Positions 4,507 through 57,426 of a stretch of DNA of 64,000 nucleotides are shown here, in pieces. The notes beneath the pieces are model-generated. The model had not been told where the DNA came from. It saw nothing but the letters and a program-made list of their open reading frames with translations, and did not search any database. The stretch's first letter is position 1; every line of letters begins with the position of its first letter. Origin of the DNA: Psychroflexus halocasei (GTDB lineage: Bacteria; Bacteroidota; Bacteroidia; Flavobacteriales; Flavobacteriaceae). The position numbers and the translations under genes were made by a program. Location: contig NZ_FNQF01000004.1 in NCBI RefSeq assembly GCF_900107595.1, forward strand, positions 124,001 to 188,000, given 5' to 3'.

Positions 4507-6336
4507 TTACTTTCCTTCCATTTTATCTTTAAGCGCTTGTAATTCAGCATTTGCATCACCAAGAGTAGTTTTGTTCTCTTCAGTTTTAGCTTTTTGCTGA
4601 GCTTGCTTAACAATATTTTGCTCTTCTTCTTTATGAATAGCAGTATGCGAAGCAACAACTCTCTTAAATTCTTTATTGAATTCAATGATTACAAAGTCAG
4701 CTGATTCACCTTTTGTTAACTTGCTTTCGTCTTCTTTAATCAAGTGACGAGAAGGAACAAATGCAGTGACATCATCGTTAAACTTGATGGTTGCACCTTT
4801 ATCAACAATATCAGTGATTTCAGCAGTGTGCTTGCTTCCTACAGCAAACTCTTCAGCGTATCTATCCCAAGGGTTCACTTCTGTTTGCTTATGACCTAAG
4901 CTTAACTTGCGTCCTTCAACATCTAGTTCAAGTACAACAACGTCTAACTTATCACCAACTTTACAGAATTCTGAAGGGTGTTTAATTTTCTTAGTCCAAG
5001 AAAGATCAGAGATGTAAATCAATCCGTCAATTCCCTCTTCTAATTCAACAAAAACACCAAAGTTTGTAAAGTTTCTAACTTCACCTGTGTGTTTAGAACC
5101 AACAGGATATTTAGTTGTAATATCAGTCCATGGATCTGGTGTCATTTGTTTAATACCAAGTGACATTTTACGCTCTTCACGGTCAAGTGTTAAGATTTTT
5201 GCTTCAATCTCATCACCAACATTTACGAAATCTTGTGCAGATCTCAAGTGCGTACTCCAAGACATTTCAGAAACGTGAATTAAACCTTCAACACCTTCTT
5301 CAACTTCGATGAATGCACCGTAATCAGCGATAACTGTGACTTTACCTTTCACAACATCACCAACTTTAATGTTTTCATCTAAAGCTTCCCAAGGATGCTT
5401 ACTCAATTGTTTAAGACCAAGTTGAATTCTTGTCTTATCTTCATCAAAGTCTAAAATTACAACGTTTAATGTTTGGTCTAACTCAACAACCTCGTTCGGG
5501 TGGTTGATTCTTGACCAAGATAAATCAGTAATGTGAACTAATCCGTCAACACCTCCAAGATCAACAAATACACCGTAAGAAGTAATGTTTTTAACAACAC
5601 CTTCAAGGACTTGTCCTTTTTCTAATTGACCGATAATTTCTTTCTTCTGCTCTTCAATATCAGCTTCGATAAGTGCTTTATGCGAAACAACAACGTTTTT
5701 AAATTCGTGATTGATTTTCACAACTTTGAATTCCATGTTTTTCCCAACGTAAGCATCGTAGTCACGAATAGGTTTCACATCAATTTGAGAACCTGGTAAG
5801 AAAGCTTCGATGCCGAAAACGTCAACGATCATTCCTCCTTTAGTTCTGCACTTAACTAAACCGTTAACTACAGTTCCGTCTTCTTGTGCTAAATTAACGC
5901 GCTCCCAAGCTCTGATAACACGAGCTTTTCTATGAGAAAGAATTAATTGTCCTTCTTCATCTTCACGAATGTCAATAAGAACGTCAACCATGTCACCTTC
6001 TTTAAGGTCTGGGTTGTATCTAAATTCGTTTAAAGAAATAACACCTTCACTTTTTGCGTTGATGTCAATAATTGCGTCAAGGTCAGTAATTTTGATAACT
6101 TTACCTTGAACAACTTCGTTATGAAGTGTGTCAACAAAATTCTCTTCAACTAATTTCTCAAACTGATCTAACTGCTCATCTGCAACTTCATCAATTCCTT
6201 CTTCATACTTGTGCCAGTTGAAGTTTTCAAGAAATTCTTTAGGATTTTTTTGTTGTTCAGAAGCTTCGATTGTAGATTGTTGTGCTTCTGTGTTTGCAAC
6301 GTCTTGTTGCTCTGTTTTTTTTGAATCTTCAGCCAT
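4507..6336 (-). CDS. rpsA: 30S ribosomal protein S1
   Basis: Ribosomal protein S1, needed for mRNA binding to the 30S subunit. Its 609 residues carry six S1 repeats between about residues 80 and 570, recognisable by recurring segments such as GVFVDLGGVDGLVHITDLSW, GAFIEVEEGVEGLIHVSEMSW and GVFVELEEGIDGLIYISDLSW. The N-terminus is glutamine/glutamate-rich and the C-terminal tail is charged, as usual in Bacteroidota. It has its own promoter upstream on the minus strand and a terminator directly downstream, so it is probably monocistronic. Confidence 0.97.
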   Translation of the reverse strand: MAEDSKKTEQQDVANTEAQQSTIEASEQQKNPKEFLENFNWHKYEEGIDEVADEQLDQFEKLVEENFVDTLHNEVVQGKVIKITDLDAIIDINAKSEGVISLNEFRYNPDLKEGDMVDVLIDIREDEEGQLILSHRKARVIRAWERVNLAQEDGTVVNGLVKCRTKGGMIVDVFGIEAFLPGSQIDVKPIRDYDAYVGKNMEFKVVKINHEFKNVVVSHKALIEADIEEQKKEIIGQLEKGQVLEGVVKNITSYGVFVDLGGVDGLVHITDLSWSRINHPNEVVELDQTLNVVILDFDEDKTRIQLGLKQLSKHPWEALDENIKVGDVVKGKVTVIADYGAFIEVEEGVEGLIHVSEMSWSTHLRSAQDFVNVGDEIEAKILTLDREERKMSLGIKQMTPDPWTDITTKYPVGSKHTGEVRNFTNFGVFVELEEGIDGLIYISDLSWTKKIKHPSEFCKVGDKLDVVVLELDVEGRKLSLGHKQTEVNPWDRYAEEFAVGSKHTAEITDIVDKGATIKFNDDVTAFVPSRHLIKEDESKLTKGESADFVIIEFNKEFKRVVASHTAIHKEEEQNIVKQAQQKAKTEENKTTLGDANAELQALKDKMEGK

Positions 6337-50732: not shown

Positions 50733-50804
50733 GCGAAAGTAGCTCAGGGGTAGAGCATCACCTTGCCAAGGTGGGGGTCGCGGGTTCAAATCCCGTCTTT
50801 CGCT
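50733..50804 (+). tRNA. tRNA-Gly (GCC)
   Basis: 72-base cloverleaf: acceptor GCGAAAG/CTTTCGC with discriminator T, D-stem GCTC/GAGC, anticodon stem CACC/GGTG with loop TTGCCAA (anticodon GCC), T-arm GCGGGTTCAAATCCCGT. CCA is not encoded. Confidence 0.97.
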
Positions 50805-50811
50805 CAGACGC

Positions 50812-50896
50812 GCTCGGATGGTGGAATTGGTAGACACGTTGGACTTAAAATCCAATGACCATTGCGGTCGTGCGGGTTCAATTCCCGCTCCGAGTA
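50812..50896 (+). tRNA. tRNA-Leu (TAA)
   Basis: 85-base class II tRNA with a long variable arm. Acceptor GCTCGGA/TCCGAGT (terminal G-U pair), anticodon stem TTGGA/TCCAA with loop CTTAAAA (anticodon TAA), T-arm GCGGGTTCAATTCCCGC, discriminator A. It starts 7 bases after tRNA-Gly and is in the same transcript. Confidence 0.97.
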
Positions 50897-50903
50897 CTTG
50901 TAA

Positions 50904-51337: not shown

Positions 51338-52491
51338 TTAATTAGAATTTGTAAAATAAATTTTTGTGTCATTTGCTTTCTTATACCCAAAATTATTTTC
51401 TTGGATTGTCTTCATCGATTTTAAATTTTTACAATGCCCAAAAATGTCTGATTTTTTACCAATGTGATTTATTTCATTAAAATAAAATAAATCCCCAGCC
51501 TTAAAAGAATAATCTTGTGGTTGCTCTTTTCGTTTTTTATTTAAATAAAATTCATGGTTATGAAGTTCATTTATAAAAATGATAGGCTTACTAATAACTT
51601 CAGACTTCAAGCATTCATTATTTATGTATAATTTTATAATGGTTTCAAAACTAGAATTAATCGAAATTTCTAAGTTAAAGAGTAAATGCTTATTGAAATT
51701 CTCTTTCATATCTATCATATACTCAAAAAAATTGTTTAAGCTATCATGTATTACCACGTTAAGCTTATTATTTGAAGAAAGATTAACTGAAAAGCCGTTA
51801 TTGTTAAAAGGTAATTTATAATACTTAAATCTTCTCCAGAATTATTCTCTTTTAATTTCAGGTTAATAAAAAAATCTAAATCAATAGTTGAACGAAGTAC
51901 CTCATAACCATAGTTATAAAGAGTTCTTGTTTGTTTAGCAATTACATATTCAATAGAATTTAAACCATTAAATTTAATGCTCATTAATTGAATAATGTAT
52001 TTTGGTATTTTATCGGAGTAATGTGAGCCACCAAAAGTGTTTGAATATTTAGACACAACCTTTGATAAAGGTAATTTTATCTCATTGAGAGTAACTGCGC
52101 TAAGTTGTAAAAATTCATCTAGAGTATATTTCCTATAGTCCTTTTGATGATTAATTGAGGAATTGATTAAATAAAGGTTTAATTTATTTATTGTTACAAA
52201 TCTTTCTGCTTCAGTTTCTTTGGCATAAATAAATGGCTTCTTATCGACTAAATTTATAATTTCAATTAACAACGGCTTCAATCCTGAACTATTTTCAAAG
52301 AACAGACTTCTCAATTGGCCGCATATCACGTTGAGTTGATAATGACTACCATCATCAAATAGTTTTATACCATCATTAATTATTCTAAGTGAATAATACA
52401 ATTCATGAAAACGAAATAGTGTGTCTTTTTTGAGTTCTCTAAATATATCATTAGTCTCTAAGTGATTTACCATTTCCTTTTTATCTCCCAT
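51338..52491 (-). pseudogene. Unknown accessory gene, split by a -1 frameshift
   Basis: Two minus-strand frames (52491-51751, 246 residues; then 51757-51338) seem to be one gene. The first ends in a hydrophobic tail unlike the rest (LTITAFQLIFLQIISLTW), whereas the alternate frame across 51760-51830 reads YYKLPFNNNGFSVNLSSNNK and runs on into the second frame. One missing base near 51826-51830 explains this and would give about 380 residues. N-terminal part: LFRFHELYYSLRIINDGIKL, mostly helical, soluble. I do not recognise the family. It lies downstream of the restriction-modification gene and may be an accessory defence or cassette gene. Confidence 0.55.
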
Positions 52492-52589: not shown

Positions 52590-55500
52590 TTACGATTCTT
52601 CCACAATTTTTATCTCTTCATCTGTCAACCCATACAACTCATACACCATTTGGTCGATTTCTTTGTCTGTGGTGTCTATTTTAGCTTTAATATCAAGAGC
52701 TTTTTGTTGCTCAGCAAGAAAATAATCCTCCCACTCGGCTGCTTCGCTTAGGCTCAGTTTAATTTTTTTCTTTTTAAGTTCTTTGACAAAATCAGCAAAA
52801 CTCAATTCATACCAATTTTGGAGTTTTTTAGGGAGTTTTTCTAATTCTTCTGGGAATTGGCGTTGGAGTGAGCGTTGATATTTTGAAGATACAGCTTGTA
52901 AATCTTTATTTAAAGCCAACATTTGGTCTGCTTTCTCTATAAAGGGCTGTTGTTTTGAAGGAGAAATATCTTTTATTGGAAACTTTCTTAAGTCATTTAA
53001 AATTATTTTTGGGAACATTTTTCTAACTGACTTAGCTGTATTTTTCAAAAAGTAATAAGACATCATATTACTATTAATGATTGAAACAATATATTTAAGT
53101 GATATTTTTTTTTCTTGTTTGGCTATTATTCCAATATTACTCCTATTATATAAGTATATATCATCATTATATGTAGCTATTATACTATTAGGAAATTTTC
53201 CTGTAATCTCCCTAATGATAATTTTCTCACCATTAAATAAATCAAATGTTCTGGGAGAAGCTAACTGTTTACCATAACCTAAATATTGACCTGACCAATT
53301 TATTGAATACCGCTGCACATCTTTTCCTTCAAGATATTTATGAGTATTTTCATCAAATTTATAATCATAATCATAAGGTCTGTTTTTAACATCATTAGCA
53401 CTCTGTTTTGGCTCCCCTTTATTTTTTTCATAAGCTTGTAAACCAGCTCTTATATTAACAAGCTTATCTAAAACTTTTGAATTTAGTTTTAGTTTATTTG
53501 TTAATTCAACGCTTTGTTCATTAGAAAAAACCCTAAATTCAAATCCATTGTTTTTTGAAAAATCCTGTTGACACCTACTATGAGATAATATAAATTCTTC
53601 TCTAGCACTCAGTAGTACTTTTATAGTATTTAATGGATTAATATTTTTTGTTGCGATAATAATTATCGTTTCTACATTTACACCTTCAAAAGAATATCCG
53701 GATAGGTTAATAATTTGATTTACAGAGCAACTTTTTAAAATTAAGCTTCTTAGTCCTTTTGCTGAATCAACCATTAACCATGCGTTTGGTACAATCAAAC
53801 CAAAATTGGAGTCATCTTTTATAATTTTAATTGATTTTTCAATAAATAACAGATATAGATTGATTTGATACTCTGCTGCCTTGTATATTTTAGAGTAATA
53901 TTGTTTAATATCTTTAGTAAAATTTTCTCTTGCAAATACATATGGCGGATTCCCAATCACAACATCAAAACCACCTTTAAATTCAGTTTTAAAGGCTTCG
54001 TCTATCGTGCAACACATCTGGTTAATCAAGGCTTGGGTTGCTCTAGGGTGTTGGGGTAGTTCGTGCTTACTGCGGTTACGCTGTATATAGTTAATGGTAT
54101 TATTCAGCTGCTCGTGTGATGTCACTTCCTTAGGCTGTGAATATTTTTGTTGCCACAATGGTTTATTTTTTTCTTCTCGCAAGGGGTCATGACCCCTTGT
54201 AGATTCTTCATGACCCCTTGTAGCATGACCCTTTGTGGACTTTCTGGCTTTGTTAACTTTACGCGATGTGACAGATTTTAGCTTTTGCATAATGCTTGGC
54301 ACCTCTTCTATCTCGCAGGCAATTAATAAATGTATATGGTCGCCACAAATATTATAGGCCAATAGCTTCAACTGGTCTTCTTCTACCATCTCGCTAATGC
54401 TTTTGGTGACTATATAGTCATCTTCTGGGGTAAAATACACCACATTCGGGTACGGATTTGTTCCGCCGTCTCGACGTTCTCTTACTTTATAGCGTTTCAT
54501 TCGGGGTGAAGTTCGGCTGTCGTGAATTGCTGTGGTGATATGGTAAATTTTATTGTTTTTTTCTTGAAACACCTGCGGAAATTCGGTTTCCCAATTAAAG
54601 GCTTTAAGACCTGCAACCTCAGGATCATCGATTAAAGAATTACCGCATTTAATGTTATTACTTAAATCGTTGAGTTTACGGTTGGGTTGTGCAGTACGAA
54701 GCCATAGAGACAGTTTGGCAATTTCTACCGATTCATTATTAATATCTACCCCAAACAGGTTACTTTCTAAAATACTGTTTTCCACATTCGGAAATACAAA
54801 ACCGCCACCCATGAGTTTGGTTTCTAATTCATCGACGTAGTGGTGTTCAGCAATTAAGAAGTTTAATGCTTCATTTAAAAAGGCACCAGAACCACATGCA
54901 GGATCAACAATTGTAAGCTGTAAAAGCCAATAACGATAAGTTTTAAGTTTTTTTAGTAGTTTTTCTTTTGTTTTCTTTTGACGTTTTAAAATGTAATCTT
55001 CTTCATTTATTTCAAGCTTATCTTTTTGTTCTTCGCATAGCTTACCAACAGTATTTTCTACAATGTATTTTGTAATGTATTTAGGTGTATAGAAAACACC
55101 ATCTTTTTTACGTTTAGAAACCTTGATTTCATCTGAATTTTCTTCAAGCTGTGTTTGAATTTCTTCAATCTCATTCAGTGAATTTTCAAAAATATGTCCG
55201 AGTATATTGACATCTACCTCACTATTAAAGTCATATTCAGATAAATTCAGCGTATGTTTATACAGCAAATCATCGTCAATTTCAATGGTATCTAAAACTT
55301 CGTCAGGTTTAAACAAACCACCGTTGTATGGATAAACATTGTATTGCTCGCCCTTATGTCCTGTGTTGAGATAACCAAAGTATTTTTTAAAACGGTCAAA
55401 CAATGGTGTATAAGCATCTAATTCTTTTAGTTGCTTCCATTGTTTTAAAATTAATCGAACAGAATTAGGAGGAAGTAAATGTCGATCTTCTGCAAAAAAT

Positions 55501-56213
55501 AAAAACAAAAAGCGATCGAGTAATTTTTGCGATTTTTTAAATAGTAGCAATGGCTCAACGGCTGGGTTGAGTGCCGTTAAATTATTAAATAGTTCACGCT
55601 TAAATAAACTATAATCTTCATAAAGTTGTTTGGTTATTATGTCCTCTTGACTAACAGATTCTTTTTTGAGCTTTAAAGGAATATTTTTCTTGATGTTTTC
55701 GTAACCTAAGCATAAGTATAGAAGTCTAAATTCATCTTCTGTAAGCTTAAATAAATCGAATTTGATATGGTTAATAGCATTATCAATATAGAAGCGTAAT
55801 TTCTCAAAGTTTGAAATAATGACATAATTACAATCTGATTGATTGTTCTTATAACCAAATGCTTGATTTTCTACCTTTGATAAATCTGTTGTATCTGTTC
55901 CTTTTAATTCAACAACACCTACAACTTTATTATTGACTATAATACCGCCATCAGCTTTTTTGCTATCCTTGACATTTTTAAGTTCTGTCGTTAAATTGAA
56001 GTCAGTTTCAGGGTTTAGTGTGTAGCCTAAAACATCAACAAATAAATCACGAAAAAAGCCCTCTTGGTATTGTTCTTCTTTAACATTCCGAATGTTTTCT
56101 TGAATAGTCGGATCATGGAAATGAGTTTTATAAATTTCCCATTTCTGTTTTATTTTTTTTTCGTTGAGTGTTTTAAGATATTTTTGAACAACGGTTGATT
56201 GAAGTAAAGACAT
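52590..56213 (-). CDS. Type IIG restriction-modification enzyme with inserted Y1 transposase-like domain
   Basis: 1207-residue fusion of nuclease, adenine methylase and specificity domain (Eco57I/PglX-like). The PD-(D/E)xK nuclease site is D88...E102-L-K104 (KADGGIIVNN, VVELKG). Methylase motif I is DPACGSG (from D437), motif IV is NPPY (from N755). The target-recognition region covers about 880-1150, with terminal coiled segments. Between the methylase motifs, residues about 552-746 form a separate domain with HUH (H626-I-H628) and a candidate catalytic Y709, as in REP-associated tyrosine transposases. The frame is intact throughout. It may act as stand-alone restriction-modification or BREX-like methylase; no other BREX genes are present. 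Confidence 0.85.
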   Translation of the reverse strand: MSLLQSTVVQKYLKTLNEKKIKQKWEIYKTHFHDPTIQENIRNVKEEQYQEGFFRDLFVDVLGYTLNPETDFNLTTELKNVKDSKKADGGIIVNNKVVGVVELKGTDTTDLSKVENQAFGYKNNQSDCNYVIISNFEKLRFYIDNAINHIKFDLFKLTEDEFRLLYLCLGYENIKKNIPLKLKKESVSQEDIITKQLYEDYSLFKRELFNNLTALNPAVEPLLLFKKSQKLLDRFLFLFFAEDRHLLPPNSVRLILKQWKQLKELDAYTPLFDRFKKYFGYLNTGHKGEQYNVYPYNGGLFKPDEVLDTIEIDDDLLYKHTLNLSEYDFNSEVDVNILGHIFENSLNEIEEIQTQLEENSDEIKVSKRKKDGVFYTPKYITKYIVENTVGKLCEEQKDKLEINEEDYILKRQKKTKEKLLKKLKTYRYWLLQLTIVDPACGSGAFLNEALNFLIAEHHYVDELETKLMGGGFVFPNVENSILESNLFGVDINNESVEIAKLSLWLRTAQPNRKLNDLSNNIKCGNSLIDDPEVAGLKAFNWETEFPQVFQEKNNKIYHITTAIHDSRTSPRMKRYKVRERRDGGTNPYPNVVYFTPEDDYIVTKSISEMVEEDQLKLLAYNICGDHIHLLIACEIEEVPSIMQKLKSVTSRKVNKARKSTKGHATRGHEESTRGHDPLREEKNKPLWQQKYSQPKEVTSHEQLNNTINYIQRNRSKHELPQHPRATQALINQMCCTIDEAFKTEFKGGFDVVIGNPPYVFARENFTKDIKQYYSKIYKAAEYQINLYLLFIEKSIKIIKDDSNFGLIVPNAWLMVDSAKGLRSLILKSCSVNQIINLSGYSFEGVNVETIIIIATKNINPLNTIKVLLSAREEFILSHSRCQQDFSKNNGFEFRVFSNEQSVELTNKLKLNSKVLDKLVNIRAGLQAYEKNKGEPKQSANDVKNRPYDYDYKFDENTHKYLEGKDVQRYSINWSGQYLGYGKQLASPRTFDLFNGEKIIIREITGKFPNSIIATYNDDIYLYNRSNIGIIAKQEKKISLKYIVSIINSNMMSYYFLKNTAKSVRKMFPKIILNDLRKFPIKDISPSKQQPFIEKADQMLALNKDLQAVSSKYQRSLQRQFPEELEKLPKKLQNWYELSFADFVKELKKKKIKLSLSEAAEWEDYFLAEQQKALDIKAKIDTTDKEIDQMVYELYGLTDEEIKIVEES
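53976..54560 (-). mobile_element. REP-associated tyrosine transposase (Y1/HUH) domain inside the methylase
   Basis: In-frame insert of about 195 codons. It has the layout of a RAYT/IS200-like protein: strand IYHITTAIHDS, the HUH segment NICGDHIHLLIACE, helix SIMQKLKSVTSRKVNKARK, then PLWQQKYSQPKEVTSHEQL and NTINYIQRNRSKHELP with the catalytic-type tyrosine. On both sides the host enzyme continues normally (WETEFPQVFQE before, GGFDVVIGNPPY after). Its G+C looks higher than the flanks. It could be an insertion fixed as a domain, or still have nicking activity. Confidence 0.75.
54180..54238. repeat. REP-like palindrome and short repeats in the Y1 linker
   Basis: CAAGGGGTCATGACCCCTTG (54180-54199) is a perfect 20-base palindrome. 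Its half TCATGACCCCTTGTAG recurs at 54208-54223 and, with changes, at 54223-54238. In the protein these encode the repeated TRGHE/TRGHD segments of the linker between the HUH motif and the catalytic helix. Palindromic REP sequences are the natural targets of RAYT proteins. Confidence 0.8.
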
Positions 56214-57346: not shown

Positions 57347-57350
57347 CTTG

Positions 57351-57426
57351 GGTGACAGGTGGGATTCGAACCCACGACCCTCGGATCCACAAACCGATAC
57401 TCTAACCAACTGAGCTACAACCACCA
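57351..57426 (-). tRNA. tRNA-His (GTG)
   Basis: 76 bases including the extra 5' G that pairs with C73, a hallmark of tRNA-His. Acceptor GTGGTTG/CTGTCAC is weak (two G-U pairs and a U-U mismatch), D-stem GCTC/GAGT, anticodon loop TTGTGGA (GTG) with a U-U mismatch closing the stem, T-arm GTGGGTTCGAATCCCAC. CCA is not fully encoded. Confidence 0.95.

Follow-up and report, generated by a model that had tools for sequence, protein, structure and literature searches.

A gene of Psychroflexus halocasei raises the question of how a transposase-type domain comes to stand in the reading frame of a restriction-modification enzyme, a few residues from a catalytic motif, and whether it is settled there. 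The gene occupies positions 52590..56213 of a 64,000-nucleotide stretch (hereafter the window; contig NZ_FNQF01000004.1, positions 124,001 to 188,000), and the domain is of the type found in REP-associated tyrosine transposases (RAYTs), REP standing for repetitive extragenic palindromic sequence. When the gene is compared with its relatives in other genomes, the fusion recurs patchily at one site and nearly always carries in-frame palindromes. We propose, with a probability of about two-thirds, that domain and palindromes form an intragenic REPtron, that is, a mobile nuclease module that would act in cis on its own palindromes.

An HUH domain inside a type IIG restriction enzyme

The list of open reading frames (ORFs) of the window gives an uninterrupted frame of 1207 codons that starts with ATG at 56213 and runs to 52590 on the minus strand, where the coding parts of this gene described below also lie; a preliminary description of this DNA had reported the frame without its strand, and the plus-strand translation of 52590..56213 contains many stops. 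The 1207-aa protein matches the PADLOC profile REase_MTase_IIG (PDLC03609, length 1066) at E 8.6e-272, the best stretch stopping at residue 551, the edge of the insert, and Pfam recognizes Eco57I (6.2e-42), N6_Mtase and TaqI_C (1.1e-22) together with Y1_Tnp (PF01797, 7.1e-9). Motif I (DPACGSG, residue 437) and motif IV (NPPY, residue 755) of the methyltransferase (MTase) share a single polypeptide with a specificity domain, which at the level of profiles and motifs confirms the protein as a type IIG restriction-modification enzyme. Its N-terminal half (residues 1-549, 54567..56213), delimited by homology to an insert-free gene of the same genus, carries motif I and presumably the nuclease part of the enzyme, for which an ELK-type motif spotted by eye is a candidate. 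The insert (about residues 550-746, 53976..54566) is placed in frame eight residues before motif IV, and on its right stands the flank GGFDVVIGNPPY (53940..53975), which includes motif IV and whose DNA is strongly conserved across the compared alleles. The fused enzyme is presumed to be still active, because frames and motifs persist.

Taken alone, the insert matches Y1_Tnp at E 2.7e-11 (44.1 bits, past the cut-off of 23) and the NCBIfam family REP_Tyr_transpos at E 7.1e-14 (51.9 bits, below that family's cut-off of 80). It contains GDHIH at residues 624-628, within which H626-I-H628 forms the HUH motif (54330..54338), and NTINYIQRN from residue 705, in which Y709 (54087..54089, in YIQRNRSKH) is the candidate catalytic tyrosine; DHIH and the tyrosine are both invariant in a 12-row alignment. 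These motifs and those of the MTase are present as the preliminary description had stated. Among the 20 fused genes introduced below, DH[IVM]H is present in all and Y[IV]xxN[RH]xKH in 19, the twentieth (L014) being cut by a contig end before the tyrosine, and NRxKH beside the tyrosine is kept across them (NH in L097). The predicted structure of the insert has a mean predicted local distance difference test score (pLDDT) of 74.6, and its longest low-confidence stretch (119-140) contains the loop encoded by a palindrome. In a Foldseek search with this model, ranks 1-30 of 1101 are Y1-type transposases, including IS200/IS605 TnpA and the RAYT 4er8 (best E 3.3e-4; nine matches at E <= 0.001; template modelling score by target 0.47-0.64). 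The MTase part around the insert is predicted with low confidence (mean pLDDT 62.5, 11 sequences). By its profile match, its catalytic residues and its predicted fold, the insert is confirmed as the RAYT/Y1-type HUH domain that had been proposed. The own genome holds no further Y1_Tnp match at E <= 0.001, so the domain is there in one copy.

The insert differs from its host in composition. In the window gene its guanine-cytosine (GC) content is 0.413, against 0.313 in the N-half and 0.289 in the C-half, the contrast being clearest at third codon positions (0.41 vs 0.24 in the N-half); in 14/19 fused genes the insert likewise exceeds the N-half. Part of this excess is due to the palindromes, which are GC-rich and contribute to the figure. 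Ratios of nonsynonymous to synonymous change (dN/dS, or raw pN/pS; Nei-Gojobori) in nine fused pairs fall between 0.04 and 0.39 for the insert parts, many of them being raw pN/pS with synonymous sites saturated, and judged by these ratios the insert is under purifying selection.

An empty site and a patchy recurrence

The host half of the gene was searched against 395 genomes of the order, 30 of which, the own genome counted, have a match at E <= 1e-30. The nearest other genome, G248, belongs to the same genus and encodes an insert-free homologue with 81% identity over residues 1-545. This homologue is shorter than the window protein by exactly 195 residues, with 123 rather than 318 residues between motifs I and IV, so that the "about 195 extra residues" of the preliminary description proves exact. 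The site reads FPQVF-A-KGGFDVVIGNPPY in G248 and FPQVF, insert, KGGFDVVIGNPPY in the window, and in a blastn comparison the DNA homology of the N-half to the G248 gene ends at 54568, the edge of the insert. The G248 gene lies in a different genomic location; within the surrounding 10 kb only the gene itself matches the window. Motifs I and IV are separated by 123 residues in most insert-free homologues, 27 of 30 (the gap is 132 in L088 and 128 in L110; in L115 NPPY was not found), and all 30 have open frames, of 947-1103 aa. L088 (genome G019) and L110 (G268) carry short insertions at the identical site, and that of L088 reads as a different palindromic element (CCCCCTTTGAAGGGGG...), also in frame.

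The fusion itself recurs. Twenty genes, from isolates and from metagenome-assembled genomes (MAGs), share the architecture: 11 of the 12 confirmed genome-contig loci, the window, those of G388, G330 and G029 from a search of the order, and those of G425, G455, G448, G429 and G582 from a search of the phylum; the twelfth confirmed locus, L013, is free-standing. Because 19 further genes in other genomes share this architecture, chance or a single artefact is excluded. According to their records the hosts are Flavobacteriaceae, other Bacteroidota, a Neomarinimicrobiota MAG and a Gastranaerophilales MAG. The fusion was found in 4/395 genomes of the order search and 6/395 of a phylum search, the own genome counted in both and the samples overlapping. 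All 20 share one insertion site, the right edge being out of view in L014 and L098, where contigs end. Plasmids, phages and viral contigs yielded no relatives of the insert; five stretches of viral contigs matched a pattern and none was confirmed.

The 39 genomes of the phylum of G011 added two free-standing relatives, one of them in G011 itself, and two fused genes, L119 and L120, whose hosts were assigned by eye, on their translation, to a different Eco57I-type subfamily. Here the insert follows PFDW..EFPQVF or PFDW..EFKEVF and in L120 precedes GGFDAVIGNPPY; L119 stops at a contig end. In L119 (G787) the host part of this different subfamily also shows repeated palindrome-type peptides (NKGLREDNKGLREDNKGLKPLV) after methylase motif I. 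Seven further free-standing RAYT matches emerged from the order search (E 3e-10 to 3e-9); L040, L042 and L043 read YIHYNP, a different subclass, and L037, L038, L041 and L039 (with a stop) stand outside the insert tree and the subclass reading.

That the insert was fixed, as the preliminary description supposed, is not supported. On a 48-row tree of the host N-half, made of 20 fused genes and 28 without the insert (L081 and L083, whose site the pattern did not match, were left out), insert presence requires at least 13 changes, 11 of them forced by well-supported branches, and since 61-64 of 500 label shuffles give counts as low, insert presence is hardly clustered on the host tree. A tree of the ~190 residues beside the site, with 45 rows (without L014, L097, L108, L106 and L092), requires 12 changes, eight of them forced. 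The window pairs with the insert-free L079 on the host tree (100/100) and groups with L003, L004, L012 and L005 on the insert tree (100/99). In approximately unbiased (AU) tests, with p values to be taken as guides, the insert's five-gene clade is rejected on the host tree (p 2.9e-42) and on the ~190-residue tree (p 2.5e-48), 18 fused rows as a single clade are rejected on the host tree (p 1.7e-4), and the insert tree in turn rejects two groups taken from the host side (p 4e-5 and 1.4e-68). L014 was left out of the insert trees, L097 also out of the one used for the AU test, and L119 and L120 are in no tree. The free-standing L013 falls among the fused inserts at an unresolved fork, which does not tell the order of the two forms.

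For the window, the closest left flank is that of the insert-free L079 over 120 and 240 nt and that of the insert-free L084 over 60 nt; when seven fused genes were compared over 240 nt, four of them (the window, L004, L093 and L003) had their nearest left flank in an insert-free gene. Because of the at least 13 changes on the host tree and the conflict between insert and host trees, we read these sequences as those of an insert that moves rather than one that is fixed, and the same-genus homologue without it speaks likewise against fixation.

Palindromes within the fused frames

The strongest hint to the domain's action, missed by the preliminary description, lies within the gene. A sequence scan revealed a perfect 20-bp palindrome, CAAGGGGTCATGACCCCTTG (54180..54199), between the HUH motif and the tyrosine, where it encodes RGHDPL; it is the sole match to CAAGGG-N8-CCCTTG in the 2.67-Mb own genome. 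At 54187..54238 half of the palindrome (TCATGACCCCTTGTAG) is repeated in tandem, in three copies spaced by 21 and 15 nt, the third at 81%. If a self-complementary element may differ from the arms at up to two places and have up to one mismatched pair, in-frame 20-bp palindromes of this type occur in 18/20 fused genes (all but L014 and L097) vs 0/30 insert-free genes; hits in the insert-free L089 and L115 have five mismatched pairs and fail. Where the arms differ, they do so together (CAATGG/CCATTG in L007, L080, L086 and L098; CAAGGA/TCCTTG in L094-L096), and because both sides change together the pairing is kept. When palindromes of any sort with arms of at least 9 are sought, 44 turn up in 19/20 fused genes, a few of them of other kinds, and two, unrelated, in 2/30 insert-free genes. 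The one in L014 is an unrelated, AT-rich palindrome; the single fused gene not counted is L086, whose palindrome has one mismatch. In the divergent insert of L097, a palindrome type peculiar to it lies between HUH and tyrosine. At 6213-6235 of both L007 and L010 another kind (AAATGTTAT...ATAACATTT) occupies the same place near the HUH motif.

L012 holds eight copies, 36-42 nt apart with every spacing a multiple of three, and nine copies lie in the host parts of five genes: L006 (residues 319 and 1155), L007 (1154), L008 (94, 378 and 1191), L080 (410 and 1175) and L096 (1151). Five of these nine stand at a full gap in 20 to 30 of the 30 insert-free genes, and the remaining four are partly aligned, which makes their insertion status less plain. 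A palindrome at residue 1151 of L080 was dropped as a host-linker copy, all 30 insert-free genes being filled there. Among 53 palindromes tabulated, A stands at -1 in 44 and at -2 in 34, and T at +1 in 32 and C at +2 in 29; the 5' GT[AG]G foot consensus is absent among them, and in the window a GTAG adjoins the palindrome on its 3' side.

We also searched 43 genomes for the exact pattern (20 carrying a fused gene, 22 lacking one, and G011, which has the free form), in one set of 13 (0/13 with a reversed-pattern control) and one of 30 (2/30). Matches with at most one mismatched pair occur in 17/20 fused genomes, and in 13 of these 17 every match lies in the fused gene, within 160 nt past its end or past an early stop. 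Ten have matches in the gene only (G000, G002, G003, G005, G009 and G388 with one each, G425 with two, G330 with three, G004 with four, a figure resting on the genome count and the four found in L006, and G010 with seven); those of G429 (one) and G448 (two) lie just past the gene's end, and that of G455 (one) beyond the early stop of its short ORF. G010 has one more match elsewhere, with 2 of 10 pairs mismatched. Of the 22 genomes without a fused gene, G293 and G303 each contain a single match, with 3 and 4 pairs mismatched, and the genome of the free-standing L013 has 36. The palindromes are presumably cognate to the insert domain. Dispersed CAAGGG-N8-CCCTTG palindromes with other centres were seen in G001, G008 (13 of its 15 being of or near the GGCATGCC kind) and G011, hinting at further free-standing relatives.

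The rest of the host gene is modular, in fused and insert-free genes alike: the N-half is conserved, identity falls sharply after NPPYV and recovers at the C-terminus. The C-half of the window gene (52593..53939), a hypervariable region followed by a more constant C-terminus, is nearest to the insert-free L091 (50-73% per 60-residue block), and its N-half to L079. A relative of the N-half at G392:C1:2457882-2459523 has six internal stops in its first part. Downstream of the gene lie two ORFs (51751-52491 and 51338-51757) to which Pfam and PADLOC match nothing, and all three stand between tRNA-Gly/tRNA-Leu and tRNA-His genes (50733-50897 and 57350-57424), perhaps as an island.

Explanations and known systems

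As an intragenic REPtron, the HUH domain would be translated as part of the restriction enzyme and, in the manner of TnpA-REP, would bind and nick its own hairpins as single-stranded DNA while the gene is single-stranded during replication. Strand transfer would then copy or move palindromes, mostly in cis, to those linkers of the domain's gene that tolerate them, and selection would leave only in-frame copies located in linkers. To reach insert-free alleles, the module might either transpose directly or be carried in by recombination between the conserved FPxVF and GGFDVVIGNPPY flanks. Since the site borders on a catalytic motif in a gene whose disruption is costly, an imprecise deletion would harm the enzyme, and the module could persist in an intein-like life without splicing. 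We infer the nicking, the strand transfer and the enzyme activity. Of the roles proposed in the preliminary description, the best fit is that of a selfish module for which the enzyme is a safe site.

Several observations weigh against this proposal. A stop within the locus leaves three of the 20 fused ORFs short (L005 782, L094 759 and L012 992 aa), motif I of L012 reads DPACSSG, and some short fused genes may be broken. Four of the 17 genomes have palindromes elsewhere (in-gene share 2/11 in G001, 4/7 in G006, 2/7 in G007 and 1/15 in G008), three of the 20 fused genomes (G012, G029 and G582) have no exact match, and the own genome retains a single palindrome. There are no CAAGGG-type palindromes at the insert edges, and thus no evident intermediate of excision or integration. 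The clades put to the AU test were picked after the trees had been inspected. The host genes recombine heavily, so that the counts of changes may be inflated, and gains of the insert cannot be split from losses, although an exact loss would itself require a precise process. In three of the seven fused genes tested (L012, L080 and L096) the nearest 240-nt left flank is itself fused, because of which part of the insert pattern is vertical. The idea that the insert of L094 and L096 is younger than its host was dropped after a sliding comparison gave a similar tract from residue 327 through the insert in a mosaic N-half.

A rival explanation is a passive passenger, an old RAYT insertion whose patchiness arises only from homologous recombination among alleles and whose palindromes are relics of activity or local duplications. 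The gene is modular and mosaic, the right-flank DNA is very conserved, the tandem palindromes of L012 and the half-copies of the window resemble local duplication, and there are the three fused left flanks. We nevertheless consider this explanation unlikely, given that the HUH motif, the tyrosine and the neighboring NRxKH (NH in L097) are kept in an insert under purifying selection, that complementarity survives changes in both arms, that local duplication does not explain palindromes far from the insert in L006, L007, L008, L080 and L096, and that the left flank of the window is nearest to insert-free genes at all three lengths. Purifying selection, and a frame and catalytic residues kept in genomes of several phyla (as named in the records), would also be expected if the fusion benefits its host, the HUH domain serving, for instance, in recognition of hairpins, forks or the single-stranded DNA of phages, or in control of its own gene via the palindromes. 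A selfish module would keep these residues likewise, however, and the 30 open insert-free homologues, one of them of the same genus, and the weak clustering on the host tree leave a host benefit rather improbable as the explanation. The three short ORFs might be cited for a misassembly or for a decayed transposase that happens to be tolerated; either is very unlikely for the fusion family given its recurrence at 20 loci from isolates and MAGs with the catalytic residues kept wherever they are covered.

The REPtron reading can also be set beside known systems. The insert has the HUH motif and downstream tyrosine of RAYTs in a Y1 fold, and palindromes at the gene, as in RAYTs, are present too, in frame inside it in 18/20 fused genes and flanking it in the two free relatives; RAYTs are separate genes, whereas this is a domain inside a 1207-aa restriction enzyme ORF with palindromes also in host-enzyme linkers, and the canonical 5' GT[AG]G foot is absent. 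The free-standing L117/L013 and L118 have the same domain family, with the same CAAGGG..CCCTTG palindromes flanking and inside the gene, but as ORFs of their own of 194-198 aa. According to passages of Quentin et al. 2018 (PMC6006769), RAYT subclass 2.4 resembles our case in its Bacteroidetes hosts and low copy number, and in-frame REPs inside subclass 2.4 genes, generally between HuH and Y, are known; its motifs there are NH[IFV]H and YIxNNP, compared with DHIH and YIQRNRSKH (YIxxNRxKH) here. The same passages give median lengths of 148-325 aa for RAYT subclasses and record that unusually long TnpAY1 proteins were discarded as fusions or annotation errors. IS200/IS605 TnpA (IS608, ISDra2) shares the predicted fold and the HUH and tyrosine residues, but in place of Q in the Y---Q signature given in that source the 19 fused genes covering the site have N. 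Parts of PMC8266576 describe how TnpA-REP cuts single-stranded REPs beside the stem via a tyrosine link and can transfer the strand. Palindromic elements of Rickettsia likewise lie in frame in proteins, but in the relevant sections of PMC3733652 several genes are hit and a nuclease in the same ORF goes unmentioned. IS200/IS605 elements also have subterminal hairpins and several near-identical copies; here hairpins are absent at the insert ends and the own genome has one copy. The host architecture is that of type IIG enzymes (PDLC03609).

Inteins and homing elements reside in frame at conserved catalytic motifs and recur patchily at one site, as does this insert. No intein Hint or splicing family and no homing-nuclease family is among the seven Pfam matches up to E 1, and inteins are spliced out, whereas this domain stays in the predicted protein. 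We found no description of a RAYT inside a restriction enzyme in the open-access PMC papers searched, subscription papers and preprints being outside the scope of the search. Each part is known; what we did not find described there is an intragenic REPtron lodged in a restriction enzyme and recurring at one site, and this combination stands a fair chance of meriting its own class. More tentatively, and at somewhat less than even odds, it may be a mobile element of a new class, a domain parasite that resembles an intein but is not spliced, with an active single-strand nuclease and its hairpins living and spreading wholly inside the frame of a defence gene, hairpins being inserted in cis into that gene's linkers and the conserved catalytic motif serving as site-specific address.

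Part of the reason why the spread of REP palindromes is, in the words that PMC8266576 gives to it, poorly understood is that RAYTs are low-copy and rarely caught moving. Here a RAYT-type domain has a defined address, exact insert-free alleles and palindromes whose co-varying arms provide a natural bar-code mostly co-located with the domain, and because of these three features both cis-action and mobility are testable. The fusion would represent a mobile nuclease with a restriction gene as its home, and the tolerance of a transposase-type domain beside an MTase catalytic motif may also aid protein engineering.

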